Of a stretch of DNA of 64,000 nt, positions 5,497 to 60,871 are shown piece by piece. The stretch covers positions 24,562,462 to 24,626,461 of the forward strand of contig OZ020517.1 in the NCBI GenBank assembly GCA_963971425.1. Direction: 5' to 3'. The notes under the pieces were generated by a model that had not been told where the DNA came from, searched no databases, and saw nothing but the letters and a program-made list of their open reading frames with translations. This DNA is from Bryoerythrophyllum caledonicum (Eukaryota; Streptophyta; Bryopsida; Pottiales; Pottiaceae). Made by a program: the position numbers and the translations under genes. Position 1 is the stretch's first letter; the number at the start of each line of letters is the position of its first letter.

Positions 5497-6501
<1,005 letters not shown>

Positions 6502-12606: not shown

Positions 12607-12932
12607 TCAATGTGCTAAACAATGTAGACACAACCATTGATACACTAGTACTCTTAGAAGGGCTGGGGTTAGACATTTTAGATGCCACCCCATAGAACAC
12701 AAGTCGTAAATGACCATTGTAGCTGCCTGTTTGGCACTACTACACAACCAACATCGCAATTCAGAAGAGATGTAAGAAAGACCAAGGGGTACCGTGCCAT
12801 CAATGTGTCGCAAATGGCAAGGCGCGCAATTGCGTGTGTAATCCTTCCATACCTTACCATCACAACTCTCCAACAGTAGCACTCATGAGTTCTTCACCTC
12901 ACGAACTCGTAAGATCACCCGTCTCGCCGTCA
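12607..12932 (-). pseudogene. Gypsy integrase C-terminus with PHD-like finger (3' part of split pol)
   Basis: The frame resumes at the LINE target duplication (…TARR) and continues into VILRVREV, LLLESCDGKVWKDY and RNCAPCHLRHIDG. It then enters a cysteine/histidine cluster: CWLC, DLC, GWHLKC, WLCLHC. Spacing fits a PHD finger, with one expected cysteine replaced (IYDLC). PHD or chromo-type modules at the integrase C-terminus can bind modified histones and guide integration. There is an in-frame TGA between KNS and VLLLE. The first half of this integrase lies 12.6 kb away at 25523-26350. Confidence 0.75.
12919..12932. repeat. Left target-site duplication of LINE copy 1 (14 bp)
   Basis: CCGTCTCGCCGTCA is repeated exactly at 25523-25536. 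The two copies flank LINE copy 1, and in both the sequence encodes the same integrase residues (VTARR) in the gypsy frame, which fixes the insertion site. Confidence 0.92.
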
Positions 12933-12980
12933 GAAGAAGAAGAAGAAGAAGAACGCCGGTTCCCGAGAGGGGATCGGCGT
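12933..12980 (-). repeat. 3' terminal hairpin and (TTC)7 tail of LINE copy 1
   Basis: On the element's sense strand a 12-bp stem (10 of 12 paired, ACGCCG…CGGCGT) with a 4-nt loop is followed directly by seven TTC units and then the target duplication. Copy 2 has an equivalent hairpin at 53562-53536 (11 of 12 paired). Stem position 10 changes from C-G to T-A between copies, a compensatory change. In L2/CR1-type LINEs a similar 3' stem-loop plus microsatellite tail is recognised by the reverse transcriptase; the same role is inferred here. Confidence 0.75.
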
Positions 12981-13231
12981 GAATAAAGTGTCTGTTCGTT
13001 CCACTACTAAGACCATGCTCACCGAACAAGGAATTAGCAAGTTGGAACTACTTCCCCCTTTCGAGGGTAGACACTATGTAACGGGTAGCCATAAACCTAC
13101 AAAACAAAGCACCCAGCTATCTAACCATCCAACTAATCAAGCAAGCAGCCAAAAAACCACAAACCAACCGAGCGAGCAGACAAGAACCACAGAGCCAACC
13201 AATCAAGAAAAATCAAAGCGAGGGGAGGAGA
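12981..13231 (-). other. 3' untranslated region of LINE copy 1
   Basis: The segment next to the hairpin (about 12979-13090) is well conserved with copy 2 at 53561-53670, including the blocks gtgaataaagtgtctgttcg and tcgagggtagacactatg. The part nearer the stop codon has drifted. The plus-strand open frames seen here in both copies are antisense products of this conserved untranslated region, not genes. Confidence 0.8.
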
Positions 13232-16200
13232 TTAAGGAGGGTCTTGTGTATCAGGGAGGGTTTGATTGTTTTCAATTTTGCGTTTATGCAGTAAAATGGA
13301 CATGGCATATTGGGTAGCGATGGTATTAATGTTTTTAAAGGTGGTTTTGATTGTTTCAATGGGTATTTTGAAAGTGTCTTCCAGAGTTTTCATAGATGGG
13401 ATAAAAGTGGTAGCGCGGGCGCCGGATGTGATTACAATAAGGGGGTCTACATTCCATCCGAGGGCAATGATGTCGTCAATAAGGGGTTGGTATTTATCTA
13501 TTTTATTTTGGATTGTTTCCGGGGAAAATCTATCATTGCAATATGTGAATTCAATGAATTGAATGGTGTAGTCTTGGTTGATGTTATTTGGTGATGGGTC
13601 ATTATATGGTAAACCTTTAACACAAAGGATGTCAGGTTTGAGCCTAGCGTTGCAGTGGCACCTTTGAGTCTGACATGAGCATGGGAGTAGCCAAGGAGGG
13701 ACTGTATTTTCTTGTGGATAGTTATTAAAAGTGCCGGCGTTCATTAGTATAAAACATCTCGATTTATTGTAGGAGGTGATTAGTTTTCGGACTTCCCATA
13801 CCGCTTTATTATGTCTTTTAACAATTAGAGAGTGTATGTGGTGGTTTTGGCATTTGAGTAGAACATGAAGCCATGTGTCGGGGTCCGTTGAGGGGCATAT
13901 GGGGCAGGTTATGGATGGGAATCTTTCTGTTCCAAAGAAGAGTTGTTTACGGGCATTTCCCATGTATTGACCGGTACGGAATTTGATAAGGCATGTGATT
14001 TGTGAGTCGGTGATGATGGAGTTTTTCCAAAAATTTGTAGAGAGTTCATTGTCAATGTCATTGTTGTTAGTCCACTTTTCTATGTTAGGGAAGTTGTCCG
14101 AGATTATATCAAGGTTGTTGTAGGAGTCTTGTTTTTTGAGATATTTGCCCAGAAATCTAATCGGGCCTTTGTCGGGGGTATCTTCTTTGGAAGGCCAATC
14201 TTCTTTTTGAAAGTAGTATGGGGTGGCATGGGCATGTTCGTGTGGGTCTTTAGCATTTTTGTGTGTTTTCTCTCGGCCTTCTTTTGCTAATTTGTCTGCT
14301 TGTTCGTTGCCATCGATGTTGGCATGGGCTCTCACTTTGTGGAGGGTTGTGATTTGTGTACGGTTTTGTATCATTTGGACCATTGACGTTAATATGATTT
14401 GGTCGGGGTGGCTATTGTGAAGAGTAGGGTGTGTTATTTGAGTGTTTAGTAGATAGAGTGCATTTATACAGTCAGTGAATATATGTGCGGGTTCATTGTT
14501 GTATTTTGTTGTGATGATTTGTAGTGTTTTGTGAATGGCCATGAGTTCTGCTCTAAGGATATTTTGTAGTCCATGGAGTCTTTTGGCTATTTTGATTTCT
14601 TTGGTAGAGTTATATATGCCATAGCCAGCTTTTTCTCTGCGCCAAGAGCCCGGGCTAATTTGTTCTGGTGGTTTAAAGGAGCCGTCAGTGTAATAACTGT
14701 GTGCGGGGTTAAATTTTGGTGTGGTATGAGTTGTGTAGTTTGGTAGAGGGGGAGGTGTGACGTAGTAGTTTAATGTGTTGTTGACGTAGCTTAGTTTTGA
14801 CCAGTTTTTACTTTTGTTTACGGGGGTTTGTATGGGTGTTGGTGGGGCCAGTATTGTGTATAGTGGGTGTATGTCTAGATTGTTTGTTATGGAGGTAAGT
14901 TCAGCAAGTTGTTCTAGGGAGCCAAGGGTTTGATTTTGATGATGGACGCATAGTATTTGTAATGTAGATGGCTCGATTCGGGGTTTTTTTAGCTCGGGTG
15001 GAATAGTAGGTTCTTCGTATGGTATTGTATCTGCCTCAAATACTGCAATGATATGTGAATCTGGAAATGGGTTCAAATGTTGATTGTTGTTTTGGTACCA
15101 ATTGTTGTTTGGTGTGATGATGATTGTATTTGTATTATTTGGATCGTGTTTTGCGGCAAGTCTAGCCCAGTGTATGGCTTGTTCCATGTCCTTCTCGTTG
15201 TGGGGGTGAGCTATACCATTACCGATCCATTTATAGTCAAAGGCCTTTCCTAGGGATCCGAATATTTTGTCTCTTTCATAAGGTGAGTAGAATTTGTTTA
15301 GTTTGGTAGAACATGTGACCGGGGAGGAAAAGTATGATTGTTCGATGTTGAAGGATGAGATTAGTGAGTCTAAGATTGGAGTGGGTATTGTGTATTGCGC
15401 ATTTTTTAGGGGGTCCGTTTTTGGTATTCGGTATTTGTATCTTTGGTATAACCATATTAGTTCGGTTTCAAAGGGTTGGGTCGGTGGTTCGATGTTTGTT
15501 GGGGTTTGTAATTTTGTATTGTATTGGTTCCATAACCATTGGAGTCGAGTGACGGGGATGGTGTGTAAATGTCGGCCATTTTCTTCATATAGATGTGCTT
15601 GGTTGTTATCCATTTGAATTGTGTTTGAGGATGTAAGAATATCATTTTCGGGGTTACATTCTGTTGTGTAGATGTTTAAGAGTGGGATAATTATGGGTGG
15701 TGTTACGGATCTTGAGTCTGAAATTTGTTCTTGGGGGTGGTGGGCTAGGATGATATCCGAGTATGTATTGTTTTGAATTTTTTGGTAGTATTGTTTTAAT
15801 TTTTCGGTATTATATTTGGAAGTATTAGTGTCGTGTCGTGGGAAAAGGTCTCTTTGGGGAAGCCATTTATTGTATGTATTATTATTGTGTTGCCATTGGC
15901 ATAGATATTTAGTGTAGGTATTTTGTATGTTATTTGTGTCTGTGTTTTGGATGTGTCTATGGCGTAAGATGTTATTAATGGGGTATGTGGTAGGATTTTT
16001 GGGGATGTATGTTGGGGGGCGGAGATGGTGTGTATGTGGAAGGTTAGGGGGATTGATTGGGGTGGGGGTATTTCTTGGGTATACATTATTGTGGAGGGTG
16101 ATGAATGTATCTTTGAGTATATGAGAGTATGGGTGTATGTAACAAGGAGTATTACATGTAGTGCGGCATGTTGGATGGCAAAATAGTTGTTTAGCAACAT

Positions 16201-19200
16201 TTAGGGCACTTTTTATGAGTTTGGTTGGGGTGAAGTGGAAGGTTTTGAAGTCCTCATTGTTCATGATGTGTGTGCCGTTGGGTAAAGTAATTTGGGTTAG
16301 TTCGAAAATATTTTTTGAGAGGAGTTTTTGTAGTAGCTTTTGGGAGAGTTGGGCATTGAGTGTGTTGTGGTTTAGTGTTTCTTGGCGCCATAGTATTTCT
16401 AGTGATGTAGGGTTGATGAGGAAGTTTGGGAGTGTACTTTTAAGGTGGACTTTAGCTATGTGTTTTAATAAGAAGAATGTTCGTGTGATTGGTGATCTTA
16501 TGCAGTCACTTTTTTTAATTCTGGGTATGTATTCGGCGCCACCGTGTTGGGCCAGGACATATTGAGTTAATCCATTATATATTTTTCCAAGTCTACCTTT
16601 ATCGTTTAGCGCATTTTGTAGTTGTTCGCCTATACATCGGAGATATGCGTTTTTGAGGGAGAAAGCTTCAAGGCCAAAAAGGTTATGTGGGAGTTGTGTT
16701 ATTGCGTTTGACATACATTTTGGTAATCCACATATGGTTTTTTGTATGGCGATTATTTTTTGATCAAGTTTTTTGATGGCTGGCATAGAGTATGGAACTC
16801 CGTAGAAACTGTATGCCACACCTGGGCGTAGTACGGTGTCAACCATTTTTATTTTTTGTTTCATGGTGGCTGGGCATGTTATTAGGTCTTTGCATTGTTT
16901 GATGAGTTTCGTGGTTGTAGTGTGAATTTGTATTTTCCATTTTAGTGAGGGGACAAGATTTGTACCTAGGTATATATAAGGTTCATTTTGGTGTAGTGTA
17001 GGGATTGGTTGGTTGCGGTAATTGATGTTGGAGGCTTGTATTAGGGCTTTGAAAGTGGTAGGGTTCAGTTTGGATTTGTTTGGGCATCCGGTAACAGCAC
17101 ATTTTGGGACACCTACGTCCATACCAGCCCATTTACAATATCTATCAATTTTATTGAGTTGTATTTGGATTGATTTGATTTTGTTAGTTTCTAGCCATCT
17201 GAGTAGTGGTTCTAAAAATATAATGAATAGATATGGACTAAGGGTGTCCCCTTGTATAGTTCCTCTTTGAATAGGTATAGGTTTTGTTTTTCCAAAGTAT
17301 TCACCAATGTAGTAAGTGGATGAGTGGGAGTAGATGTTTCCAACAAGTGTAGTTGCCTCTTTTGGGTAACCAAGGTCCATCATTATTGCTAGTAGTCGAG
17401 CATGATCTATTGAGCCAAAGGCATTTTTGAAGTCTATATATAATATGTATATATCTTGGTTAGTAAATTTTGCGTCTTCTAGTGCGGCTATTATAGTTTG
17501 AATTTGTCGAGCGGTACTTCTTTCGGCTCTAAATCCTTCTTGACTATCATGTAGGATTTTGAATTTTTCACCATATGAGGATAGTATAGAGGTGAATGTG
17601 CTGGTAAAGAGTTTATATATTGTGTTAGCTAGTGCGATCGGCCTATGGTTAGGTAGTATGGATGGGTCGCCTTTTTTGTATAGTAAGATTGTTGCACTTG
17701 ATTTCCATGAGTCCGGTATTTGTTTTTGTTTATAGCAATGGGAGAAGAATAGGAATAATAGTTTATGAAATCTTGGAGGCATGTTTTTGAGTATTGAGTT
17801 TGGTATGCGATCTGGACCTGGGGCTTTATTGCTACCAAGATTTTGAAGGCATGTATCATACGTGGCTCTGTTAAGGTATTTATGTAGTGGAATTTCAGAT
17901 TTGCCTCGTTTGTCAAGGGTATATCCATCCAGGTCATGCCATGGATATTGGCGTACTGCACATGTGCATTCGTTTGTATGTTGTGGTTGATAATTGCATG
18001 TTGGTACTGTTGGTCTGTTGGTTATTGTTTGTTGGTTTAATATTTCATTCGCAATGTCTTCGGGGCTGGTTAGAATATTATTATATTGATCTCTGATACA
18101 GTCCATAGGCGGGGATTCAAGGTTTTTAAAGACTTTTTTGTTAATTTTTTTGGGGCTGATTTCGTATAATTGTCTATATTTTGAGATGGCTTTTTTAATG
18201 TTATCTTTGGTGTATTTTGTGGTTATTTTCCTGGCTTGTATGTTGGCTTTCTTTGCAATTAGTGCGATATCTTTTATCCATGTATCATGGGGAAGGTCCG
18301 GAGGTGGCGGGGTGGGGATTTGGGTGTGTTGTAGAGTTAGTAGTTCAGTGCATATGGGGTGGTTACGCCATTGCGGGTTGTTGTTTACAATTCTAATGGT
18401 TTTTCGTAGAGCATGGTATGTGGTTAGGTGTTGTTTCCAAGTTTTAGAAAGTTTGCGGGGTAAGTACCCGCCTTGTTGAGAAGTCCTTTTTGTCATTTGA
18501 GGTATTGTATGTGCTCTACAAGTTTGTTCTAGTGTATCAGAGATTTTATTGATGAGTTTGTCTAGGGTGTGGCATGCTTCTTGCCATTGTACTTGTGATA
18601 GTTGACTGTTATTTTCAAGAGTGTTTATGAGGGAATCTATTTGTATGGAGTTTTCTTCAAAGAATTTTGTGTTGAATTTTTCTATATTATTTTTTGGGAT
18701 GGGGTTGAGTATGCGTATAGTGTCATTGTTTAGGATTATGGGAGTTCTATTAATTAATGTGTTATTTGGGATGTGCAATTGTATAGGTAAATGGTCCGAG
18801 TTGAGAATAACATCCTTGTTTGTTGTAGAGGTGTATTGTGTATTGTTATTTGTATTTATATAGAATCCATCTATTAGACTCCAATCATTGTAATTATATC
18901 CACCTTGTCTAGAGAATTGTGTGTCAGTATTGATGTAAGTGAAACTTAGGTGTTCTGTGAAGCGGCGCCACTGGTAATCTATGTTTTGAGGGGGGGTTTT
19001 ATGATTACCATTTTGGCGACCGATTAATGCTATGTCTCTGTTGAAGTCACCGCATAATAGGTATGTGTGATTGGGATTATTATTAATTTGGGATGTAATG
19101 GTGTTTTGTATGTCTATGATAAATCTAGTGTCTTCGGGATGAGATGGCATATACATGTGGAAGATTAACCACGGTTGTAGTGGGTGGTTAGTGATTTTGA

Positions 19201-20173
19201 TTATTTGAATGTAAGGTGATATGTGCATTGGGGTAGGAATTTTGTTGATGTTGCCTGGGAAGGCATATTTTTTGTGTATTAGTGTAAGGAGGCCACCGCG
19301 GCCCGGTGTGTATGGTCTCCGTTGTTGAATGCATCTTGTAAGTGTATGTGTATTATTAAAGATGAGTTTATAGTCTTGAAATATATTTTGTATGTATTTC
19401 GTAGATTTTGTGGCGGTTAATTTTGTTTCTTGTATAACTATGAGGGCCGGTGGTGTGTCTGTGTGTGTGGCCAATGTTTGTAGGCTAGGAAGGGCAGTGT
19501 TTAGAGAGGAGGCATTCCATGTGATTATGTGTGTATTTTCTTGATTTGATCTAATGTTCTGATTTTGTGGAGGGATGTAGGGAAGAGGTGGAGGTGGGTG
19601 GGTGTATTCTGGTATAGGGTCTAAACATTTTAGCGATTCATTGATGAGGTTGTTAGGGAGGTAAGGGAATTTTAGTTTTATTGTTTCCCTTGAGGGGGGT
19701 ATGGCTTGACTATGTAGGAAGTCATATAATTCCTTATGTATTGAGTTTTCATGGTTTATAATGTTTTGGTTATCTTCAAGAAATTTTATGTACGGATGTG
19801 GAGTGTGAATGTGTCGTTCTGGCGGGTTTTGTAAGTTTAGTAAAGTTTGTAGAAGTGTATTGGTCCATGTAATTGTGTTCAAATTTTGTGGATTTAGGAG
19901 ATGGTTACATTCATTTATGTGTGGATGGATAGTGACTACTAGGGCGTATAAAATGTGGGGTGGTGGATGTGTAGTTTTTCGTTGTATGTACTGGGCAATG
20001 TTTGAATGTGTACTGTTATGTGTGTGGTGTAATGTATGTGTGTTTTTTAAGAAAGGTGCGAAGGCTTTTGCAATGTGTCCATATTCCGGTTGTAATTTTA
20101 TGGTATTAGGTATGAAGTATATTTTGGCATTTTTCTTATGTAGCGTAGGGTGTCTTTTTAGTATATTAGACAT
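13232..20173 (-). pseudogene. LINE ORF2 enzymatic region: APE endonuclease, RT (YADD deleted), RNase H, CCHC, restriction-like endonuclease
   Basis: 2,313 codons are open from the Met just after the 2A peptide. Residues about 215-468 are an APE endonuclease with its key residues in place (WNASS N220, QETK E249, MYMPSH, GDFN D376/N378, LIDGFY D435, SDH D460/H461). RT motifs run from about 775 (APGPDRIP, KKGDPSILPNHRPIAL, QEGFRAERST, YIDFKNAFGSIDH, QGDTLSPYLF) to about 1200. After LLRWLE (995) 27 codons present in copy 2 are missing, including the catalytic YADD. RNase H spans about 1825-1960 (YYTDGS, RAELMAI, HIFTDC, GNEQADKLA). A CxxC-x9-H-x4-C finger lies near 2085. The C-terminal module has RLKPD (D2181), QFIEF (E2208) and KIDKY, matching the PD…D/E…K..KY pattern of R2-type endonucleases. 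Codon reading is otherwise intact. Confidence 0.9.
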
Positions 20174-20203
20174 GGGTCCCGGGTTGGTTTCTATGTCACC
20201 TCC
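20174..20203 (-). other. 2A-like ribosome-skipping peptide in LINE copy 1
   Basis: The sense strand encodes GGDIETNPGP followed by Met, preceded by a run of five leucines (HKLLLLLGGD). This fits the consensus D(V/I)ExNPG|P exactly. In known 2A peptides the ribosome releases the upstream chain at the G-P bond and continues. Here it would separate the linker protein from the enzymatic polyprotein. The motif is identical in copy 2 (60842-60871), although the copies have diverged elsewhere. Confidence 0.9.
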
Positions 20204-20286
20204 TAGAAGTAGTAGGAGTTTGTGATATGTATGTTTAGTGCTATATTTTAAAGTTTTTGTTTTATGTATAATTTTTTGAGGCTTTG

Positions 20287-21537
20287 TTATGTTATTAAAA
20301 TCTTGTTTGTTTGGAGGTAGGTGGGTGTTTTTATTTTGTATGTGGGTAGTGAGTTTTTTTTTTGTTCTTGTTTATAGTGGGTGTAATTGTAGTCCTCGTT
20401 GACTTTTTTTTGTGTCCATGCGTTTATGTGCGTAGTTGTTTTTGTTTTATTAATGGTGTATAGGTGTGTGTATGTTTGTTTGTGTATTTTTGTGGTTGTG
20501 TTTGGCCATGTGTGTATGTGATTTTTGTGTTTAAGAATTTTTTTATGTGGGTTAATAACGGTATTGAAGGAGGTATTGAGGACGTCTTTATATGTAGGTG
20601 TGTTAGTGTATATGTTGGGGTTTATATAAGTGTTTGTTTTGATGTTTGTGTTAGTATGTATGTTTTGGTTCAATGTTTTATGTGTATTTTTTGGGTGTTC
20701 TTTTGGTTTATTGTTTGTGGTTTTAGTATTTTTGTTGTGGTTAACGGGGGTGGGGTTTGGTTGTAGTTGTGTGTATAGATGGTATGGTGTGGTGGGGCGG
20801 TGTAGTATGTTTGTGGTATATGGTGTTTTGATTTTGGGGAGTATGTGTTTGTGAGAGTGTGTGAGTGGGAGAAGGTGTCTAGCTTTTTGGGTGATGAGTA
20901 TATGCGGTAGCGTATTTTGTGGTTGGTATTTGGCTTTGCGTGGTGTTTTGATGAGTGAATTAGTTATTAGTAGTGTTTTGCACTTTATTAGTACTGTGGT
21001 GTGAGGGTGTTTATATGTGTTGCTTGTGGTCAATTGCTTTTGTTGTTGGCAAAGTTGTGGTGGTATTTTATGGTTTTTGGCGTGTGGTATGTGTGTGGTA
21101 GTGGAAATTTTTGTAGTCTGCCAATGCCATTGGCAATGACAAGAAGTGTGTATATTATCGTGGTGGTATTGAACATATAACTTTGTCATATGAGTTAGAG
21201 GAGCCCACGGGAGAGGTTGTGGCCTTCTCATGGGTTTATACTCATACCAATGACATGTGTTTACAAAATACCTATTAGGAGCTAAAACAAGTTCTAGAGA
21301 GGTAGAAAGTATAGAGAGAATAGGGTGGGTAGTAGGTGTATAGAGAGACCAATAATAAGTAAATATACTGAGATATATCACTAACAATACTATTGGAAGG
21401 AGGGGGAAAAGGGGAGTGCTAAGGTAGATAGACGAGGTAATGGAGATAGATGCAGCTACCAATGGAGATGTAGCTAGGTATGTAGGAGTTTGGTGATCTC
21501 CATGTTGTTGAAGAGATCGTGGGCGGTCTTTGGTCAA
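20287..21537 (-). pseudogene. LINE copy 1 linker region upstream of the 2A peptide, frameshifted
   Basis: A 416-codon frame overlaps the ORF1 stop by one base shift and runs toward ORF2. Its first part has a hydrophobic stretch (about residues 28-70), then a Thr/Asn/Lys/His-rich low-complexity region that aligns with the N-terminal extension of copy 2 ORF2 (for example INPHKKILKHKNHIH against INPHTNSLKHNSYIC). The frame shifts at a run of ten A (T10 on plus, 20354-20363). Downstream of that run the other frame (HIQNKNTHLPPNK, NNITKP) continues through the 2A peptide. So it was probably the N-terminal part of ORF2, not a separate gene. No enzymatic domain is recognised. Confidence 0.65.
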
Positions 21538-23804
21538 TCCACGTTTGACGGGTCATCCAAGGAGGGGAGGGATGGCTTTTCACGATTGGACTTGATACCC
21601 TTCATCACAGACAGAGCGGCACTCATTAGTTTCTCAACATCATCAAGTTTCGAGTATACCTCGGCGTTGCGGGCGTCGGTGTATTCTCGAGTCTCTCGAA
21701 TGATATCCTTCTTGAGAGTGGATAACTCCAAGCGGAGTTTTTCGTGACCATCCGCCACAATAGCAGCCATCTCGTCACGTATGTTGGTGGTGGGAACGAT
21801 GGTGGGGTTGATGGCGGCAACCGTGTTCACCAAGGCGGTGTTTATGTCGTTGAATCCCCATTTCTCCACCAAAGTGGTGGAGGGGGGATCAATGCCATCA
21901 AGGCTACGGCGGTGGGGTCGAATCTCAACTTGGTGGCAACCAATGTTGAAGGTTTGGTGAAGGTATTGTCTATAGACAATAGGATTAGCGACTTGCACGT
22001 TGGCAGAGCCATTATGCTTGCCACTAATCTGCTTGTGGAACCAAATGTTCACAATGCTCTTGGCCTCCAAAGCTTTCGTGATGGCCTCCGTGGTTTCAAC
22101 CACGCTCAATAGGATTGGTAATTGAGATAGCGTGAGTGTGAGCGCATCCTTCTTGGCCCTATCAGTGGTTGTAAAGGTTCCAGAGTTGCTGGGCTTCGCG
22201 GGGATGATCTCATGGAAGGTCGTAATCTGGTGTATTGCTAGTTTCTTTGCTTGGGTAGGAGTGGGTGCTACAATCCATGCAAATGGCTCCTTCTCCTGTT
22301 TCTGGACATCAGTAATTTCAAATTCAAGGTTACGGGTAAAGCCATTCAGAACCACGTTGTAAAACAATGTATGCGCATGAATACCACATAGATTGTCACT
22401 CTTGATGTTGACAAATAAACCTTGTCGGGCCACTGCATGCCATGTTTTGCAAACTTTCCCCATGGTAGCCGATCCCATAGGGTCGAGTTGCAATATAAAG
22501 TATCTTGTTCCTTGAAGTAGGGAGATGGCATCAATTTCCGGGTAGAGCAAGTGTAGTTTGATCAACCCTGAGAAAACATGCTTTTGTCCTTCCTTCTTCA
22601 CTCCTTTGCAATGGATGGCAAGGGGATCCAAGAGGCTAGTACCAAGGGAGATATTCATTTTGGTAAGCCTATCTCTAGCAAGTCTTTTGACCTCATCGTG
22701 AAACAATGGGGTCTTAGGCAGTTCGAACAAGATGGCCACATGGAAATCGTATGATAGGCCAGTGTCAGGGTTCGTGGGGATATCGAATGGGAGTTGTGTG
22801 AGGTTGTAGTGTTGCCCTGGGACACCGTCCTCTCTCACCATGGGATATAACATTTGTGGGATTCGGGGGTAGGATATTATAGCATTAAGGGTCTCTTCCG
22901 CCTCTGCCTTGGGTACTCCTCTGGTCATCATATCCGCTACACATTCTCCACTAAATAGTGGCTCAAGGTTTGCATCCTTCGCAAGCTTTTCCATGTTGGG
23001 GAAGCCCAACCAGAAGCGGGGTGTGGGTTGGTCTAGGGTGCTACTGCTAGGCTTTGGGTCTTGGGTACTACCTCTTTGTTTCTTTGCAGGGTGTGGTGCT
23101 TCGAGAAGGTCAAAGGTGGCGGTTGTGTTGTTATGGATTACCTTGGAGGTGGATTCGCCGTTCTCTATGTCCATGGCTTCGGTGGTAATGCTAGGTTCTC
23201 TCTGGGATTGTTCCATAGTGTCCCTGGGGTCTATGGATGAGGTTTGTTTTTTGTGGTCAGGTGATGGGGGGAATGAGGTATTAGTCCTCCGCTTCTGGTT
23301 TGTTCTAAAGAATGTGAGAGGGGTGTCTTCTTGGTCGTCTGAGAGGTGTGTTGGAAATTCTAATTGTAGTTGTTGGGGTGGGGTAGAGTTTGCCTCCAAA
23401 GTTTTCTTCTTCCTACCTCGTGTTTTAGGAGTGGGGTCGTGCTTCGGGTTTGGGGTTGTTGATTTCCTCACAGTTGATGGTCTTGTCTTTGAGGGTGTGG
23501 CTTCAACTCTAGGGGTATTGGTAGACTTGGCTTGTCGTAGACGTGGGTTGTTTTTGGGGTTTTCTAATACCTCTTCACTATTGGTCCTCCGATGTACTTC
23601 TACTCCACTATTCTTCTTTTCTATGGTGTTGCGAGGAGTGGATTGGCACCGTTTTCCAGGACTCATGCAGTTTTGTCGGGCTCTACTAGTGGTGGATAGG
23701 TGGAGGGTTAAGTATATGGGAAGGGAGGTTGGAGAGAGGGTGGTGGGAGGTAGTGGGGGAAATATTAGAAGAGGGGGGAGGTCGAAAATGGGGGGGGAGG
23801 TCAC
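21534..23804 (-). CDS. LINE copy 1 ORF1, gag-like protein
   Basis: Up to 756 codons, or about 710 from the more convincing ATG at 23666 (MSPGKRC), since the extra N-terminus is Pro/Leu-rich sequence read from a C-rich leader. The first 200 residues are basic and disordered with an AT-hook-like TRGRKKK. The middle (about 270-640) is globular and of unknown family; one part (NIWFHKQISGKHNGS…) may be RRM-like. The last 100 residues form a likely coiled coil with charged heptads, then end KPSLPSLDDPSNVD. LINE ORF1 proteins bind element RNA and multimerise, which suits this layout. Copy 2 carries the same C-terminus at 63739-64000. The stop overlaps the next frame by one base shift. Confidence 0.75.
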   Translation of the reverse strand: MTSPPIFDLPPLLIFPPLPPTTLSPTSLPIYLTLHLSTTSRARQNCMSPGKRCQSTPRNTIEKKNSGVEVHRRTNSEEVLENPKNNPRLRQAKSTNTPRVEATPSKTRPSTVRKSTTPNPKHDPTPKTRGRKKKTLEANSTPPQQLQLEFPTHLSDDQEDTPLTFFRTNQKRRTNTSFPPSPDHKKQTSSIDPRDTMEQSQREPSITTEAMDIENGESTSKVIHNNTTATFDLLEAPHPAKKQRGSTQDPKPSSSTLDQPTPRFWLGFPNMEKLAKDANLEPLFSGECVADMMTRGVPKAEAEETLNAIISYPRIPQMLYPMVREDGVPGQHYNLTQLPFDIPTNPDTGLSYDFHVAILFELPKTPLFHDEVKRLARDRLTKMNISLGTSLLDPLAIHCKGVKKEGQKHVFSGLIKLHLLYPEIDAISLLQGTRYFILQLDPMGSATMGKVCKTWHAVARQGLFVNIKSDNLCGIHAHTLFYNVVLNGFTRNLEFEITDVQKQEKEPFAWIVAPTPTQAKKLAIHQITTFHEIIPAKPSNSGTFTTTDRAKKDALTLTLSQLPILLSVVETTEAITKALEAKSIVNIWFHKQISGKHNGSANVQVANPIVYRQYLHQTFNIGCHQVEIRPHRRSLDGIDPPSTTLVEKWGFNDINTALVNTVAAINPTIVPTTNIRDEMAAIVADGHEKLRLELSTLKKDIIRETREYTDARNAEVYSKLDDVEKLMSAALSVMKGIKSNREKPSLPSLDDPSNVD

Positions 23805-25522
23805 AACTTGGGAGGAAGGAGGTCGCAGGGGGAGATAAAAGAGTCTGTGGAAGGTCGTAGGGGGAGGAGGGGTCGTAGGGGGTTAGGAGAGAGGTCGCTA
23901 GGGGAGGGAGGTTGGAAAACAGGGGGGTCGCAGGCAAGTGGGGGTCGGTAGCGGGGGGGGGTTGCTGGGTTGAGGTACTGTCCCGGTCAGGGGGGAGGTC
24001 GGGGGCGTGGGGAGTTCCGTTGAGCCTCAGGGTTCGTGGGGGGGTCGGTAGGTAGTGAGGGGGTTGGTAGTTAGGGGGGGGTAGGTCGGGACCAGGGGGG
24101 AGGTTGGTGCAGGGAGTGTCGCAAGTCGTTCCGCGTCTGTGCACCTGCTGTGCGTGTCTATGTTTCTTCTGTGCGCGTCTGCTCTCCTTATGTGCCTGCT
24201 TGATCGTCTTCGTCTGAGTGGTTGAGCGTCTGTGTTTCTTCTGTGCGCGTCTGCTCTCCTTATGTGCCTGCTTGATCGTCTTCGTCTGAGTGGTTGAACG
24301 TCTACTTGGTCTTCCTGTTCGTGCTCTACTGTTGTATACCTTGTGCGCGCCTCTCCTTGTCTGTCCGTCTGATCTTGTTCGTGCTCTTCTGTTCTTCTTG
24401 TGTGTGCCTGTCTCGTTTCTTGCTCGTCCATGTTGTGTTTGTCTCTAGTCATGAATTGTTTCTTGCTCTTGGATCGTGCCTGTCTCGCTCTTCGTGCTTG
24501 TCTGCGGGTGCTGGGGTTTACAGGGAGTATAGGGAGCTGGGTGGGGTGTGGGGAGGGGGCACCTGTTGCGGGGGGGGAGAGGTTGCATAGAGGTTGCAGG
24601 AGTGTTGAGAGAAAGTATGACGGTTCTGTAAGAATACTTACCTGGTTGGTCCGTGATCTTGTTTGTTCGTGCTCTTGATGCGCTTGCTACTGTGTTGTTA
24701 ATATTTGACTGCTGGTCGCCTATCGCAGGTCGTCTCTAGGTCGATTGTTGCTGCTGTTGATGATCTGTGGGGTCTTGGCGGTGTTGCAGGTTGTTCTTGA
24801 GTGCGCGGGAAGTGATTTTGGGTTGATGTTGCGGGCTCCTCGTGCGCGTTGTGTGGATCTGTAGAAAATTTTCCAGCGCTGCCGCGTGCAACGTGTCGAT
24901 ATAAACGTCCTAATGTTGTGTCTAGAGATTCTAGGGTTAGTAGCAGGGTGATTGTGCTTAGTGCTGTGGTTAGTGTGCGTGAGAGCTATTGTGTTGTGAC
25001 TAGTGTATGTGGAGATCCAAAATGTGTAAAAGCAATGAGATGAGTAAGAAATAGCCTGGAATGGTGAGAGGTTGTTGCCGGATACTAGCGTCGTGTTGAT
25101 CTGGTGCTCAATCTTGCGTGTATGATGCGGTCGTGGATCAAGGAGGATCAAGGACTAAGTGGTGGGCGCAGATCTCGATCTAACTACACTCAATCTGAAC
25201 AGATCTAAGGTTGAGGAGGGTCATTGAGTTCAGATCTATGCACAACACTAGATTCCCACGCTTCAGATAAAACTTGCAACAATCTCCCTCAAAGACCTGA
25301 CCACAACCTCTCAAAAGTCCAGATCTAGTGTTTTGAGCGCTTCCAACAAAAGTGATTTGCCTCCCCAACCTCACCAACGTCTATCTCTCGAACAATGTGG
25401 GCTCTCAGTAAGGCCAGCAACCTCTTACTGCACATCCCTCGAGATTATAGACTAAGTCCTTGTGCCTCCCCTCACCACGAATTGCGGAGCTCACTCTCTA
25501 CACATTCTCGTCTAATTATGTT
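23805..25522 (-). promoter_or_regulatory. 5' untranslated region of LINE copy 1
   Basis: This 1.7-kb leader lies between the upstream target duplication and ORF1. Its ORF1-proximal part (about 23750-24110) is strongly C-rich on the sense strand, seen as many GGGGG runs with recurring ggtcg on plus. Two 72-bp tandem units follow at 24161-24304. The outer part has no recognised gene. LINE leaders carry internal promoters, so a promoter is inferred here, not seen. Confidence 0.55.
24161..24304. repeat. Two 72-bp tandem units in the LINE 5' region
   Basis: The unit beginning tgtttcttctgtgcgcgtct at 24161 is repeated at 24233 with only isolated differences. Tandem monomers in the 5' region recall those of several LINE families. 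Confidence 0.85.
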
Positions 25523-25536
25523 CCGTCTCGCCGTCA
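25523..25536. repeat. Right target-site duplication of LINE copy 1 (14 bp)
   Basis: Exact second copy of CCGTCTCGCCGTCA, within the gypsy integrase reading frame. The LINE 5' end begins at 25522 on the minus strand. Confidence 0.92.
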
Positions 25537-50631: not shown

Positions 50632-53530
50632 GCTTGAGAACAGTCAGCCTCAGTAGTATGAAACTCTCCAGCGTTTTTCTAGTGACAAAACTACGGTTTG
50701 AGATGGTACTATTGATAGTCTAGCTAGGAGATGTTCTTTCCACGGATTGAGACCTTTGATAGGAATTCGAGCGTTTTGTGACGCTGGGATTCTTTTGAGT
50801 TTGAGATAGCTAGCTGCCATGATATTCCTGGCGAACTTTTGAATGCAATAGTCTTGGATTTTGCCTTCTATTAGGTGCCTCAAATCCGTAACTCTTTGGA
50901 GCTTCTGTAGACCACTTATGTAGATGGATTCAGCACAGCGACGCTGCTGTCATTAGTGCCCCACTTCATTTGAAATAGACGATTTTCGAACCTCAATTAC
51001 ATCTATTTATCTACATTCTTGTTGCTTCTAATTATACTTTTTGGTTAGCATTATGGATTAATCACAAGTGGCTGTATGCTAGATTACCACTGCATCGAGG
51101 TAGCTCATTGCTTTGACAATTCCGGGTTAGTTGATGTTGCAGGTGACAGGTCCAGGAACCTCTTGTGCAAAGGCTAACGAAAGAATTTATGCTCTCCACT
51201 TGCATTAGTCGGTATCCGAATTTGTCACTTGTGTTGGTGTCGGTAATCGAAATTGTGGTGTTCATGTCGGTAATGTGAGTGTGCTTGTGCATTTTGAGAT
51301 TTGTGTAGACTGGTTGAGTGAATATCTTCAGCCATAGCTGGAAGGATATTATTGTTAAAATCATACTTCTTTATTGAATGGATAAATAGCTACTGTATAT
51401 TGAATGGATATATAATTCCATTTTGAAGGATTTTAAATTTTCACTAGGCATGTTTAGATCTAAGGTGTTGAATACAAACCTTGGCATGGTTTACGGCTTC
51501 CTGCATGTAGAGGGAAACTATTTCTCACTTCAATTAATTATTCGGCATGGAGGTGCCAAATTAGAGGTTCACCTACGGTACTTTATTTTTTCATGTTCCA
51601 CACTACCAAAGGTCTTAAATCAATCTTTGCAATGGTGTACATGATAGTTATGTGAAAATCCATCAAAATCTGTGATTTGTCTGGAGAAATGGTTTTATCT
51701 TTCGTACTCAGCCCCATTAGGGTGAGAAAAACTTCACTTTCTCTTGAAGTGAAATTTTTGCATCTTCAGATTTTATTTTATTTTTTGCATTCTCAAGGAT
51801 AATTATATCAGCCACTAAAGTGTATCCATTATTCAAAAAATCATCAAGATTTTCACCTTTTGAATTGGAGTTCATTAGAAACCAAGGTTATATTGTTCAA
51901 TGGTTAACCTTGGACCTCTTTCTATTACAAGATCCTTTTAGATAGAAACACCATGTTTCGTGAAAAGTGCACATACACACGTGCATTTTCTTTGGATCAA
52001 GAAATAATCTTAGGTAATTAATAAATATCTACATACATGTTATATGCAAGATTAGTGGATTTGGGCACGTTATATGTGCACAATTATACTTTTTAATATT
52101 TAAAGCCCATCTTTTGTTTTGATAATATATTATGATTTCTATAGTATTATTATATTATTTTTATGTATAGATGGTTTACGAGAAGCAATTAGTACAATCG
52201 CAAGCGCCTCGCTTTATCTAAGTTTGTAAAATCATTAACTATTCAGAAATGGAACATTTTTCTCATTTTGAAGCTGGCCAACAAATATCTTGATGGCCAA
52301 CCTTCCAAAAGACCTTCCATTAACTTTAAAAAGTTTAATTTTTCAAAGTCATCATCAACATTATTACTTGAAATACAAAATTTGTAGATTAGGGGATATA
52401 GCTTATTTTCAATTTAATCAATATCACTTAGGTCCTTCAATTCAATTCAATAATTTTGCAACAAATTTTATAATTCCATATTCAAAGTTTACAACTTAGG
52501 GGAATTAGACTTAAGCTCGACCCCCTCCCTCTCCTTGAAAATCCAACTCTCATACTCTACCACATTAAGGTTCAATGGTGTTGCACCAAAGTCCATTGCC
52601 CCAAGTTTAAAATTTACAAGCTGGGGGGGAAGGCTTAAGCCTGACCTCCCTTTCCTTTCTAAGAATCCAACTCTCCTATTCTACCACATCAAAATATAAT
52701 GGTTTTGCAACAAATTTTGTAGCTCCAAATTCAATGTTTTCAAATTGAGGAGGAGGAGAAGATAGGAATAAGCCTGACCTCCGCTTCTTGAAAATCCAAC
52801 TTTGGAGGAGAGCAAAGACATCTTTGCTAATTCTAAACATGCTTATATACATCCTAGTGGACTAGCTGCTCACAAATCATGTTTCTTCACTTCCTCAACA
52901 CAAGATTACTTATGAAAATATTGTGTATGATAATGAAAATGAGATGCAACTATGATAGATAGTTGCTCAAGTCATTTGTTACCTCATGAATAGAAGCAAG
53001 TAAAACACGCAATTAAGCAATTATGCAGTTGGCCATATAAAAGTGCACTTGGGTACAACGGCGGCCATTGCGAACAAAAGTGGCAAAATTGAAAAATATA
53101 TATATATATCAAAGGAAAAAAATGTTTTCCAAAGGAAAAAAAATTGAGCTTCTGCAACAATATTACGTACAATCATGGTTGTTCATATTGGAAGCGATTT
53201 TTTGGCATTTTCAACTAATTTGTGGTGGCCCCTCGTTAATACTAGATAAATATATATTTAATATAGTTTCACAATATTTCAAAGATAGATTTGAAAGATT
53301 GTAGTATATAAACAGGCGTAATTACAAAAAAAATACTATATGCAAGGGTTGGCAGTTGATTAAAAGATATTCTACGTAGTACATAATGCATACAATGGTG
53401 GAAACTAAATATATGTGCTTCAACAATTGGACTTAGCTCCAATAGTAAACACAGCTTCACTCTAAAGGATTAATGACATAACGTCTTACATCACCCTTAG
53501 AATATACTACTCTTACACATACAAAAAGAA
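50632..53530. other. AT-rich intergenic region with a diverged ~125-bp tandem repeat
   Basis: No gene is recognised. Between about 52455 and 52805 three diverged units of about 125 bp share the landmarks gcaacaaatttt, acttaagc.tgacc, and gaaaatccaactct (units begin near 52487, 52612 and 52735). The rest is AT-rich, with short A and TA runs near 53090. Confidence 0.5.
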
Positions 53531-53535
53531 GAATA

Positions 53536-53562
53536 ACGCCGGTCTCCGAAGGAGGCCGGCGT
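53536..53562 (-). repeat. 3' terminal hairpin of LINE copy 2
   Basis: The sense strand forms a 12-bp stem with one mismatch and a 3-nt loop (ACGCCGGCCTCC TTC GGAGACCGGCGT read as separate arms). It matches the position and outer pairs of the copy 1 hairpin. Confidence 0.75.
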
Positions 53563-53806
53563 GAATAAAGTGTCTGTTCGTTCCACTACTAAGACCATGC
53601 CCACTGGACAAGGAAATAGTAAGCTGGAACTACTTCCCTCTCTCGAGGGTAGACACTATGTAACAAGAAGCCAAGGAGCCACAAAACAATCAACCGACCA
53701 ACAAATCACAACCCAAGCGACTAGCCAACGAACCAACCATAAACCAAGCAAGTAGTCAAAAACCTCAAAACAAGCACGTCATGATAAATCAAGGTTGGGG
53801 AGGAAT
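53563..53806 (-). other. 3' untranslated region of LINE copy 2
   Basis: The first 110 bp next to the hairpin match copy 1; the remainder, adjoining the ORF2 stop, has diverged. Confidence 0.75.
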
Positions 53807-55801
53807 TTAAGGGGGGTCCCGTGTATCTGGGAGGACTTGATTGTTTTCGATTTTGCGTTTATGCAGGAGAATGGACATGGCATATTGAATAGCAATGGTG
53901 TTAATGTTTTTAAAGGAGGTTTTAATTGTTTCAATGGGTATCTTGAAGTTATCTTCTAGAGATTTCATAGATGGGGTAAAGGTGGTGGCACGAGCGCCGG
54001 AAGTGATTACAATAAGGGGGTCGACATTCCATCCGAGGGCGATGATGTCGTCAATAAGGGGTTGGTATTTATCTATTTTATTTTGGATTGTTTCCGGGGA
54101 AAATCTGTCATTGCAATATGTGAACTCAATGAATTGAATGGTGTATTCTTGGTTGATGTTATTGGGTGGTGGGTCATTATATGGTAAACCTTTAACGCAA
54201 AGGATGTCCGGTTTTAGCCGAGCGTTACACTGACATCTTTGGGTCATACATGAGCATGGGAGTAGCCAAGGGGGGACCGTATTTTCTTGTGGATTATTAT
54301 TAAAAGTGCCGGCGTTCATTAATATGAAACATCTCGATTTATTGTAGGATGTAATTAGTTTTCGGACTTCCCATACCGCTTTATTGTGTCTTTTAACAAT
54401 TAAAGAGTGAATGTGGTGGTTTTGGCATTTGAGTAGAACATGAAGCCATGTGTCGGGGTCCGTTGAGGGGCATATGGGACATGTTATGGATGGGAAACTC
54501 TCTGTTCCAAAGAAGAGTTGTTTGCGAGCGTTTCCCATATACTGGCCAGTACGGAATTTGATGAGGCATGTTATTTGTGAGTCTGAGATGATGGGGTTTT
54601 TCCAAAAGTTTGTAGAGAGTTCATTGTCTATGTCGTTATTGTTAGTCCATTTATCTATGTTAGGAATATTTTCTGAGATTGTGTCAAGGTTGTTGTAGAG
54701 GTCTTGTTTCTTGAGATATTTGCCCAAAAATCTAATTGGGCCTTTGTCGGGGGTATCTTCTTTGGAAGGCCAATCTTCTTTTTGAAAGTAGTATGGGGTG
54801 GCATGGGCGTGTTCGTGCGGGTCTTTGGCATTTTTGTGTGTTTTTTCTCGGCCTTCTTTTGCAAGTTTGTCTGCTTGTTCGTTGCCATCAATGTTGGCAT
54901 GGGCTTTGACTTTGTGAAGGGTTGTGATTTGTGTGCGGTTTTGTAACATTTGTACCATTGATGTTAGTATGGTTTGGTCGGGGTGACTGTTGTGAAGGGT
55001 AGGGTGTGTTATTTGAGTGTTCAGCAGGTAGAGTGCATTTATACAATCGGTGAATATATGTGCAGGTTCATTTTTGTATTTTGTTGTGATGATTTGTAGT
55101 GTTTTGTGAATGGCCATAAGTTCTGCTCTGAGGATATTTTGTAGTCCATGGAGTCTTTTGGCTAGTTTAATTTCTTTGGTAGAATTATATATGCCATATC
55201 CAGCTTTTTCTCTGCGCCAAGAGCCCGGGCTAATTTGTTCCGGTGGTTTAAAGGAGCCGTCGGTGTAATAACTGTGTGCGGGGTTAAATTTTGGTGTGGT
55301 ATGAGTTGGGTAGTCTGGGAGGGAGGGAGGTATGACGGAGTAGTTTAATGTGTTGTTGATATAGTTTAATTTTGACCAATTTTTGCTTTTGTTTACGGGG
55401 GTTTGTATGGGTGTTGGTTGGGCCGGTTTTGTGTATGGTCTTTGTATATCTAGATTGTCTGTTATGGAGGTAAGTTCCGCAAGTTGTTCTAGAGAGCCAA
55501 TGGTTTGATTTTGATGATGGACGCATAGTATTTGTAATGTAGATGGTTCAGTTCGGGGTTTTTTTAGCTCGGGTGGAATATTAGGTTCTATGTATGTTAT
55601 TGTGTCTGCTTCGAATACTGCGATGATGTGGGAATCTGGGAATGGATTTGAATGTTGGTTGTTGTTTTGGTACCAATTGTTGTTCGGTGTGACGATGATT
55701 GTTTTTGTGTTATTTGGATCGTGTTTGGCGGCAAGTCTAGCCCAATGTATGGCTTGTTCCATGTCTTTCTCGTTGTGGGGGTGAGCTATGCCATTTCCGA
55801 T
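53807..55801 (-). pseudogene. LINE copy 2 ORF2, 3' part: RNase H, CCHC finger, restriction-like endonuclease
   Basis: This frame is continuous with the upstream ORF2 except for one TGA at 55802-55804, where copy 1 has Trp (TGG). It carries RNase H (YYTDGS, RAELMAI, HIFTDC, GNEQADKLA), the CCHC finger (CPICPSTDPDTWLHVLLKC), and the C-terminal RLKPD…QFIEF…KIDKY module with the same spacing as copy 1. All key residues are kept, so the block decayed only through the stop upstream. If the first half is translated alone it would lack RNase H and the second endonuclease. Confidence 0.9.
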
Positions 55802-58800
55802 TCATTTGTGGTCAAAGGCCTTGCCTAGGGATCCAAATATTTTGTCTCTTTCGTAAGGTGAGTAGAATTTATTTAGTTTGGTAGGACATGTGATCGGGGA
55901 GGAAAAGTATGAGTGCTCGATGTTAAAGGATGAGAATAGTGAGTCTAAGATGGGGGTGGGTATTGTGTATTGTGCATTTTTGAGGGGGTCAGTTTTTGGT
56001 ATTCGATATTTATACCTTTGGTAAAGCCAGATTATTTCGGTTTCAAAAGGTTGGGTTGTTGGTTCAATGTTTGTAGGGGTTTGGAATTTTGTATGATATT
56101 GTTTCCATAACCATTGGAGCCTGGTAATGGGTATGGTGTGTAAATGTCGGCCGTTTTCTTCGTATAGATGTGCTTGATTGTTATCTATTTGAATTGTGTT
56201 TGAGGATGTAAGGATATCATTTTCGGGGTTGCATTCTGTTGTGTAGATGTTTAAGAGTGGAATAATTATGGGTGGTGTTACGGATCTTGAGTCTGGGAAT
56301 TGTTCTTGGGGGTGATGGGCTAGGATGATATCCGCGTATGTTTTGTTTTGAATTTTTTGGTAGTATTGTTTCAATTTTTCGGTGTTATGTGTGGAGGTAT
56401 TGGTATCGTGTCGTGGGAAAAGGTCTCTTTGGGGGAGCCATTTATTATATGTATTATCATTGTGTTGCCATTGGCATAGATATTTTGTGTAGGTATTTTG
56501 TATGTTGTTTGTGTCTGTGTGTTGGATATGTTTATGGTGTATGATGTTATTAATGGGATATGTGGTAGGGTTTTTGGGGATGTATGTTGGGGGGTGGGGG
56601 CGGGGGTGATATGTATGTGGGGGGTTAGCGGGATTGATTGGTGTGGGGATATTTTTTGGGTTGATGTTATTGTTGAGGGTGATGAATGAATCTTTAAGTA
56701 TATGAGAGTATAAATGTATGTTACAAGGAATACGACATATATTGGGGCATGTTTGGTGGAAAAATAGTTGTTTAGCAATATTTAAGGCACTTTTTAATAG
56801 TTTGGATGGGGTGAAGTGGTAGGTTTTGAAGTCCTCGTTGTTCATGATATGTGTGCCGTTGGGTAACGTAATTTGTGCTAATTCAAAAATATTTTTTGAG
56901 AGGAGTTTTTGTAGAAGCTTTGGGGAGAGTTGGGCATTGAGTGTGTTGTGGTTTAGTGTTTCTTGTCGCCATAGTGTTTCAAGTGTTGTAGGATTAATGA
57001 GGAAGTTTGGGAGTGTGCTTTTAAGGTGGACTTTGGCTATATGTTTTAATAAGAAGAATGTCCGTGTTATTGGTGATCTTATACAGTCGCTTTTTTTAAT
57101 TCTGGGTATGTTTTCGGCGCCCCCGTATTGGGCGAGGATGTATTGAGTTAATCCATTATAAATTTTTCCAAGTCTACCTTTATCGTTTAAGGCATTTTGT
57201 AGTTGTTCTCCTATACATCGGAGATATGCGTTTTTTAGGGAGAAAGCTTCAAGACCAAATAGGTTATGTGGTAGTTGTGTTATTACGTTTGACATACATT
57301 TTGGTAGTCCACATATGGTTTTTTGTATGGCGATTATTTTTTGATCAAGTTTTTTGATGGCTGGCATAGAGTATGGTACCCCATAAAAACTGTATGCCAC
57401 ACCTGGGCGTAGTACGGTATCAACCATTTTTATTTTTTGTTTCATGGTGGCCGGACATGTTGTTAGTTCTTTGCATTGTTTGATGAGCTTTGTGGTTGTA
57501 GTGTGGATTTGGATTTTCCATTTTAGTGAGGGAACAAGATTTGTGCCTAGGTATAAGTATGGTTCGTTTTGGTGTAGTATAGGGATTGGTTGGTTGCGGT
57601 AGTTGATGTTAGAGGTTTGCATTAGGGCTTTGAAAGTAGTAGGGTTAAATTTAGATTTGTTTGGGCATCCGGTAGCGGCACATTTTGGAACTCCCACATC
57701 CATGCTAGCCCATTTACAATATCTATCAATTTTATGGAGTTGTATTTGGATTGATTTGATTTTGTTAGTTATGGTGGCTAGGTCATCTGCGTATGCGGCG
57801 GAGTTTATTGTGACTTGTGATGTGCCGAAAGTATATCCATTATTGCCTCTTTCTAGCCATCTAAGTAGTGGTTCTAAAAATATAATAAATAGGTATGGGC
57901 TGAGGGTGTCCCCTTGTATAGTTCCTCTTTGGATGGGTATAGGTTTTGTTTTCCCAAAGTGTTGGCCGATATAGCAAGTAGATGATTGGGAATAGATGTT
58001 TCCAACAAGTGTAGTTGCCTCTTTTGGGTAGCCAAGGTCTGACATTATTGCTAGAAGTCTGGCATGATCAATTGAGCCAAAGGCATTTTTGAAGTCCACG
58101 TATAGTATGTATATATCTTGGTTAGTAAATTTTGCGTCTTCTAATGCGGCTATTATGGTTTGTATTTGCCGTGCGGTACTTCTCTCCGCTCTAAATCCTT
58201 CTTGACTATCATGTAGGATTTTGAATTTTTCGCCGTATGAGGATAGTATGTGGGTGAGTGTACTGGTAAAAAGCTTATATATTGTGTTAGCTAGTGCAAT
58301 TGGTCTATGATTGGGTAGCATGGATGGATCGCCTTTTTTGTATAGTAGAATTGTTGTACTTGTTTTCCATGTATTTGGTATTTGTTTTTGTTTATAGCAG
58401 TGAGAAAAGAATAGGAATAGTAGTTTATGAAATCTTGGAGGCATGTTTTTGAGTATTGAGTTTGGTATGCGGTCTGGGCCTGGGGCTTTATTATTTCCAA
58501 GATTTTGGAGGCATGTGTCGTATGTGGCTCTGTTGAGGTATTTATGTAGTGGAATTTCTGGTTCGCCCCGTTTGTCAAGGGTATATCCGTCCAGGTCGTG
58601 CCAAGGGTATTGGCGTATTGCACATGTGCATTCTATTGTATGTTGTGGCTGGTAATTACATGTTGGTACTGTTGGTCTATTGGTTTTTGTTTGTTGGTTG
58701 AATATTTCATTCGCAATGTCTTCGGGGTTAGTTAGAATATTATTATATTGATCTTTGATACAATCCATTGGTGGGGATTCAAGGTTTTTAAAGACTTTTT

Positions 58801-60841: not shown

Positions 60842-60871
60842 GGGTCCCGGGTTGGTTTCAATGTCTCCTCC
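60842..60871 (-). other. 2A-like ribosome-skipping peptide in LINE copy 2
   Basis: Encodes GGDIETNPGP then Met, preceded by HKLLLLL, identical to copy 1. The downstream protein would start with the Pro of the NPG|P junction and continue PMPNILKRHP. Confidence 0.9.

Follow-up and report, generated by a model that had tools for sequence, protein, structure and literature searches.

A probable Dualen-like retrotransposon family with two endonucleases and a PCIF1-like domain in DNA of a moss assembly

The window analyzed here, a stretch of 64,000 nucleotides from the Bryoerythrophyllum caledonicum assembly GCA_963971425.1 (contig OZ020517.1, positions 24,562,462 to 24,626,461, forward strand), contains two defective copies, A and B, of what is most probably a Dualen-like family of non-long-terminal-repeat (non-LTR) retrotransposons with two open reading frames (ORFs) and two endonucleases. 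In this lineage, a 2A-like motif is followed in ORF2 by an apurinic/apyrimidinic-type endonuclease (APE), a reverse transcriptase (RT), a PCIF1-like domain, a ribonuclease H (RNase H), and a CCHC finger with a restriction-like endonuclease (RLE). The Dualen/RandI group is known for combining an APE with an endonuclease similar to PD-(D/E)xK nucleases (PMC3636483; papers are cited throughout for the portions covered), and RNase H has been reported for it as well (PMC4640811). The Dualen-like reading, including the mechanism proposed below, is given a rough probability of 0.82.

The limits of copy A are set by the 14-bp sequence TGACGGCGAGACGG, which lies directly past its (TTC)n tail and occurs exactly a second time at 25523-25536; copy A is therefore 12,590 bp long (12933-25522), as the 12.6 kb given in an initial annotation of this DNA had implied. 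When 20,000 14-mers were drawn at random from the window, none recurred within 22500-28000 (5.5 kb), a count in which 14-mers drawn from 12.9-28 kb were skipped and still included. The same annotation had described a single reading frame with an APE and its catalytic residues, an RT, and an RNase H. The frame, 2313 amino acids long, contains the APE residues N220, E249, Y341, D376, N378, D435, and S459-D460-H461. Pfam Exo_endo_phos matches residues 217-388 (E=9e-5) at 22.7 bits, slightly below its curated cut-off of 24.5, and together with a family profile and the residues it places an APE N-terminal to the RT, as in Dualen/RandI. The RNase H, also a Dualen/RandI trait, is recognized by Pfam at 1826-1967 (E=5e-12). 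The RT is recognized at 836-998 (RVT_1, E=6e-20) and is incomplete in copy A, where an in-frame deletion of 81 nucleotides relative to copy B has removed 27 codons, YADD included; the copy A RT should therefore be inactive. This deletion, the PCIF1-like domain, the 2A motif, the 3' hairpins, and copy B had escaped the initial annotation.

Copy B keeps YADD in its RT, and its ORF2 frame (63859-53807) counts 3350 codons ahead of the final stop, with a single TGA at 55802-55804. The two copies align over 7.7 kb in two blocks, with identities of 89.8% and 86.9%. A simple Nei-Gojobori estimate from this one sequence pair, which limits the support it can lend, gives a ratio of nonsynonymous to synonymous substitution (dN/dS) of 0.118 overall, with 0.099 in the APE, 0.070 in the RT, 0.121 in the PCIF1-like domain, 0.054 in the RNase H, 0.055 in the CCHC-RLE region, and 0.193 and 0.197 in two linkers. 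As judged from this pair, the low values in the APE, CCHC-RLE, and PCIF1-like domains thus indicate that all three were under purifying selection as the lineage transposed.

The C-terminal endonuclease

The initial annotation had assigned the ORF2 C-terminus to the restriction-like endonucleases of R2-type elements, and the motifs on which it relied, a CxxC-x9-H-x4-C finger (2090-2108), KPD with D2181, E2208, and KxxKY starting at K2224, were found at the residues claimed. The C-termini of relatives were aligned first in 13 rows and then in nine, with P0004, P0008, P0011, and P0012 dropped, and in these nine rows C-C-H-C, R-H, P-D, E, Y, and K are invariant. The nine-row profile matches R2 (9nl2) with E=2.9e-9 across positions 20-268 of 277, and E2208 and K2224 fall opposite an R2 Asp and Lys. 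Two of the nine rows resemble RLE-only elements, and the profile was therefore repeated with the seven rows of the element's own family; it scores 37.9 bits against the R2 piece, and the best of 500 shuffles reaches 2.5 bits, which contradicts a chance resemblance. Among those rows of a 46-match protein search that extend to this region, window rows included, PD is kept in 21/21, E2208 in 20/20, and K2224, K2227, and Y2228 each in 19/19, while the CCHC positions are kept in 23 or 24 of the 25 rows that reach them. These profile comparisons show homology between the ORF2 C-terminus and the endonuclease region of R2, so that a predicted RLE with a CCHC finger lies C-terminal to the RT, as in Dualen/RandI.

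The spacing between the catalytic Asp and Glu had been noted as longer than the classical one, and this is the case: it is 27 positions in copies A and B and in P0001, compared with 13 in R2 9nl2 and in the RLE-only rows P0013 and P0014. Within the element's family the spacing varies from 17 (P0005) through 30 (P0006) and 34 (P0003) to 37 (P0002), and the 27 positions are therefore read as a matter of loop length and no objection to an RLE.

Two endonucleases in one protein look redundant, and it may be asked whether just one of them is still active, the other (APE or RLE) having become a DNA-binding or structural remnant. Asp replaces the APE Glu in P0002, P0008 is without the finger His, and the loop between Asp and Glu is variable, all of which would suit a remnant. 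The RLE catalytic positions are nevertheless invariant in the nine-row alignment and in the rows of the 46-match search that reach them, those of the APE are kept in the relatives' alignment except in P0002, and both domains are under purifying selection between the copies, so that a single working endonuclease is considered unlikely.

The reverse transcriptase, relatives, and classification

Relatives were collected in three protein searches (19 matches, the best 120 of 1010, and 46 matches), with RT identities of up to 91% among the best 120 of 1010 matches in public data. An RT tree was built from 55 of the 142 rows with an RT match, each group under 70% identity being represented by one row and some chosen rows being added; copy B stands for the element, since copy A has the deletion and was omitted. 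A 51-row version omits the long-branched P0015, P0017, P0018, and P0019. Both trees have midpoint roots only, and their reference rows include one L1 row and no RTE row. In the 51-row tree, copy B belongs to a 41-row clade (support 99/96; 99/98 in the 55-row tree) that also holds the RTs of Gonium pectorale and Parachlorella kessleri and all six of the relatives with five modules, most of its other rows being fragments in which the second endonuclease is not visible. P0011 and P0012 join this clade at 99/94, R2 and the RLE-only rows form the next group (99/93), and L1 with the fungal row P0016 lies outside (100/99). The RT thus sits neither inside an R2 clade without an APE nor inside an L1 clade, represented by its one row, without an RLE. 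Its placement with green-algal RTs, together with the R2-homologous C-terminus, bears out the earlier suggestion of a Dualen-like LINE (long interspersed nuclear element) with two endonucleases, as far as sequence comparison can take it.

The full set of five modules, ordered APE, RT, PCIF1-like, RNase H, RLE, occurs in seven of the 184 sequences examined; the PCIF1 profile was seeded with six of these seven, P0006 being the exception. The RLE profile scores weakly in P0004 and P0008 (46 and 49 bits). Pattern searches of the collections viral_contigs and genome_contigs gave 2 and 21 stretches, respectively, none of which is a relative by tblastn. One relative with 53% identity, the protein P0153, is assigned to a metagenome-assembled genome of the archaeon Candidatus Nitrosocosmicus and perhaps represents misbinned eukaryote DNA.

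The element could instead be an ordinary APE-type plant LINE of the L1 or RTE kind, with a C-terminal Cys-rich motif that only resembles the R2 endonuclease. This would agree with a 2022 review that describes land-plant LINEs as L1 and RTE only (PMC9033089), and the L1 RT is recognizably related to that of copy B (E=4e-20), ahead of R2Bm (1e-15). Two other R2 types, however, outscore L1 (3e-30 and 1e-25), L1 and the fungal row fall outside the element's clade, and the C-terminal profile matches R2 far beyond shuffles, with PD, E, and K invariant wherever they are reached. Both the RT tree and the profile match to R2 speak against an ordinary L1 or RTE element, which they contradict and which is regarded as very improbable.

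Several points weigh against the Dualen-like reading. Neither copy is intact, A lacking YADD and B carrying one TGA. The ranking of RT scores is mixed, two of three R2 types standing above L1 and R2Bm below it, and the branch that separates L1 and the APE rows in the 55-row tree has a support of only 86/48. The Gonium and Parachlorella RTs are not labelled Dualen, and the tree included no reference Dualen sequence. At the C-terminus, four rows were dropped from the profile, among them the diverged P0008, without its finger His, and P0004, whose protein breaks off; the nine-row profile matches R2Bm (8gh6) at positions 8-101 only, and the aligned parts of the seven-row profile are the finger (13.3 bits) and K onward (22.3 bits), the part from PD to E being unaligned. 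Both the cutting order and the function given to the PCIF1-like domain are inferred, and which nuclease serves which step cannot be read from the sequence. Finally, Dualen is reported to carry a cysteine protease. None was found by Pfam at E<=1 in ORF1, the leader, or ORF2; such a protease is not part of the definition in PMC3636483.

Protease matches do occur in some relatives: P0002 has an OTU match that stays below cut-off, Peptidase_C48 matches P0011 and narrowly misses its cut-off in P0012, and P0015 carries a precomputed C48 label. P0011 and P0012 form a sister lineage with an Ulp1-type protease, RT, and RNase H and without a PCIF1-like match; their motifs GDFN and RPDG...LEYSR...KIDKYS suggest that the lineage may have both endonucleases as well, although neither family profile scored there.

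Like Dualen/RandI, the element combines an APE, a PD-(D/E)xK-type endonuclease, an RT, and an RNase H in one protein, and it ends in a non-poly(A) 3' repeat, as do 8/8 algal RandI families (PMC3747384, Table 3). It differs in its tail, which is (TTC)n in copy A and not (ATT)n or (CTATTT)n, in its PCIF1-like domain, unmentioned in the Dualen literature covered, in the 2A motif of copies A and B, in being without the protease, and in an apparently land-plant host instead of green algae. At the tail position, copy B has merely a short T/C-rich run.

With R2 and other RLE-only elements, the next group in the RT tree, the element shares a homologous CCHC and RLE C-terminus. To our knowledge, R2 has neither an APE nor an RNase H, and plant L1 and RTE LINEs have no RLE. 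R2-type clades are mostly target-specific (PMC4640811), whereas the 3' junctions of copies A and B show no common target by eye. Plant L1 and RTE LINEs resemble the element in their APE, RT, often RNase H, and, in L1, two ORFs; they differ in their (A)n or (GTT)n tails (PMC9033089) and in the L1 RT, which lies outside the element's clade.

The suggestion that the lineage is possibly undescribed holds in the literature covered, where the matches listed (titles and abstract starts) include no report of a land-plant Dualen element or of a LINE with a PCIF1 domain. It is narrowed by the sources: the table of a 2013 review, which treats flowering plants and green algae, has RandI in green algae only and says nothing about ferns or mosses (PMC3747384), and Repbase was not covered.

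The PCIF1-like domain

Between the RT and the RNase H, Pfam PCIF1_WW matches residues 1557-1694 of ORF2 with 42.2 bits (cut-off 31.1; E=8e-11), and a PCIF1-like profile finds the PCIF1 entries 6irv (E=1.3e-6) and 6irx (E=1.7e-6) in the PDB. The homology extends across the methyltransferase region of PCIF1/CAPAM, the N6,2'-O-dimethyladenosine (m6Am) methyltransferase of the RNA cap, but the catalytic NPPF of this enzyme is AHPH in the element's clade, followed mostly by N or T, with H1656 conserved in 32/33 rows and H1658 in 29/33. In relatives, the site reads SPPF (P0081), NPPP (P0003), or NPEY (P0002, P0004, and P0008), and it is unrecognizable in P0005 and P0006; P0003, P0005, and P0006 do not reach Pfam PCIF1_WW at E<=1. 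Changes at N553 and F556 inactivate PCIF1, and in Drosophila a Pcif1 that is catalytically dead is reported to have a function (PMC10544176). From the AHPH of the clade and the inactivity of the changed PCIF1, the domain is therefore read as a non-catalytic binding module: the catalytic Asn is gone, and the domain probably serves in RNA or cap binding or in tethering.

A domain that is still a methyltransferase, using an altered motif to mark element RNA or complementary DNA, would be in keeping with the homology to PCIF1, the SPPF and NPPP of two relatives, and the purifying selection. It is considered quite unlikely in view of the conserved AHPH, the inactivating effect of the N553 and F556 changes, the NPEY of three relatives, and the occurrence of neither form in P0005 and P0006. 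Another possibility is that the PCIF1-like stretch was captured by these copies alone, or that it is a join produced by a gene model or the assembly, as the lack of a PCIF1-like match in P0011 and P0012 might suggest. This is extremely improbable and is contradicted by the presence of the domain in both copies and in relatives, 27/46 matches of the third protein search carrying a precomputed PF12237 label and all seven five-module sequences having it between the RT and the RNase H.

Just before the PCIF1-like domain, residues 1394-1467 contain a YLCQW...YNKW stretch that Pfam Chromo matches below its cut-off (E=0.003 in copy A). Two of ten rows match, unrelated families reach E=0.0056 and 0.0084 in that scan too, and P0081 has a sub-threshold match of E=3e-4; the PDB search returned no chromodomain for this stretch. 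A chromodomain between the RT and the PCIF1-like domain is suggestive only.

Flanking features, proposed mechanism, and meaning

In both copies, the motif DIETNPGP adjoins the ORF2 Met in frame and fits the 2A/StopGo pattern D(V/I)ExNPGP (PMC4981915, PMC12846837). With the degenerate motif of copy B, these are the only sites that a looser 2A pattern finds in a six-frame scan of the window. Among the relatives, P0006 has DVEPNPGP upstream of its own APE, P0008 has NPGP only, and P0017 and P0019, outside the element's RT clade, also have 2A-like motifs. 2A sequences occur in trypanosome and other non-LTR elements (PMC4981915), and the likeness to L1Tc of trypanosomes and to the 2A elements of sea urchin lies in a D(V/I)ExNPGP motif in frame right before the catalytic protein. 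The bearers named are trypanosomes and sea urchin, plus an unnamed "range of other species"; in copies A and B, the putative 2A is known by its motif. For plant viruses, a 2026 survey reports no natural 2A use (PMC12846837).

The leader between ORF1 and the 2A motif is in frame with ORF2 in copy B and separated from it by a frame break in copy A, where the ORF2 frame is open from 20371. In copy B, the open leader of the ORF2 frame contains tandem repeats with a 123-nucleotide spacing (62090-63004, minus strand). ORF1 matches no Pfam family at E<=1, and its C-terminus in copy A looks, by eye, like the open frame at 63742-63999 of copy B at the window edge. At the 3' ends, 0/200 shuffles were as stable as the hairpin in either copy. 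The inner stem is CUCC/GGAG in copy B and UCCC/GGGA in copy A; the stems differ at two base pairs, both partners of each pair being altered, in a comparison of only two sequences.

Table 1. Positions of the features of copies A and B in the window
Feature	Position	Strand	Basis or remark
Copy A, whole non-LTR retrotransposon, 12,590 bp	12933..25522	-	bounded by exact 14-bp repeat
Target-site duplication (TSD), 3' copy, copy A	12919..12932	-	
TSD, 5' copy, copy A	25523..25536	-	
3' hairpin, copy A, then (TTC)n tail reaching 12933	12953..12980	-	z=-3.74
ORF2, 2313 amino acids	13232..20173	-	open reading frame
RLE core: K-P-D2181, E2208, K2224-x-x-K-Y	13235..13639	-	alignment and profile
CCHC finger	13850..13906	-	C-terminal alignment
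RNase H, ORF2 residues 1823-1978	14240..14707	-	Pfam, profiles, residues
PCIF1-like domain, ORF2 residues 1494-1770; AHPH at 1655-1658	14864..15694	-	Pfam PCIF1_WW, PDB profile matches, motif table
Possible chromodomain-like module, weak, ORF2 residues 1394-1467	15773..15994	-	sub-cut-off Pfam Chromo
RT, ORF2 residues 765-1158	16700..17881	-	YADD absent in copy A at junction 17188/17189
APE endonuclease, ORF2 residues 186-506	18656..19618	-	Pfam Exo_endo_phos below cut-off, family profile (seeded with copy A), catalytic residues
2A-like motif DIETNPGP, copy A, immediately before ORF2 Met	20174..20197	-	
Thr/Asn-rich low-complexity open frame between ORF1 and 2A motif (leader), copy A	20287..21537	-	
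ORF1, 756 amino acids (frame open 21537-23882)	21534..23804	-	open reading frame
Copy B, leaves window at its end	53523..64000	-	alignment to copy A
3' hairpin, copy B	53536..53562	-	z=-4.19
2A-like motif DIETNPGP, copy B	60842..60865	-	
Degenerate second 2A-like motif DMETNPRP, copy B, farther upstream	61340..61363	-	

Directly upstream of copy A lie remains of an LTR-type pol (25472-27472, minus strand), with an integrase core (E=9e-8) and an RT end (E=6e-7). No host reading frame, the LTR-type pol frame included, clearly continues across the reconstructed empty site of copy A. The window also contains a long simple repeat at 5454-5921 that is open on both strands, reading as Ser-Leu repeats one way and Glu-Arg the other, and a fragment of a DUF604/Fringe-type gene, the one feature of the sequence that points to the host and from which a land plant is likely.

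Under the proposed mechanism, the ribosome would skip at the 2A motif, so that the catalytic protein is made free of its low-complexity leader; this protein would then recognize its own RNA through the 3' hairpin. For target-primed reverse transcription, one of the two endonucleases, most likely the APE, would supply the starting nick, the RNase H would strip the RNA, and the CCHC-guided RLE would cut the second strand, giving a short TSD. The reverse assignment, with the RLE making the priming nick and the APE the second cut, is also allowed. The PCIF1-like domain may bind RNA or the cap.

A wider reading is put forward tentatively, at somewhat below even odds. Dualen-like elements of green plants may share a captured PCIF1 cap-methyltransferase module, at first of the active type, as SPPF and NPPP persist, which later became a fixed AHPH pseudo-enzyme in the element's clade, holding the retrotransposition machinery on the capped RNA of the element or on chromatin, beside the possible chromodomain. 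If this is true, these elements would, with their 2A leader, be among the most elaborately built LINEs and a living intermediate between the RLE and APE lineages, which LINEs with two endonucleases, placed in green algae by the literature covered, have been argued to link (PMC4640811). With two copies in which both endonucleases are under purifying selection, and with their relatives, the division of labor between the endonucleases can be tested directly within a single protein. A relative of an RNA-cap enzyme is also unexpected in a retrotransposon; the PCIF1-derived domain is conserved but has no catalytic Asn, and an element that carries it beside two endonucleases may help to show how such elements evolved.

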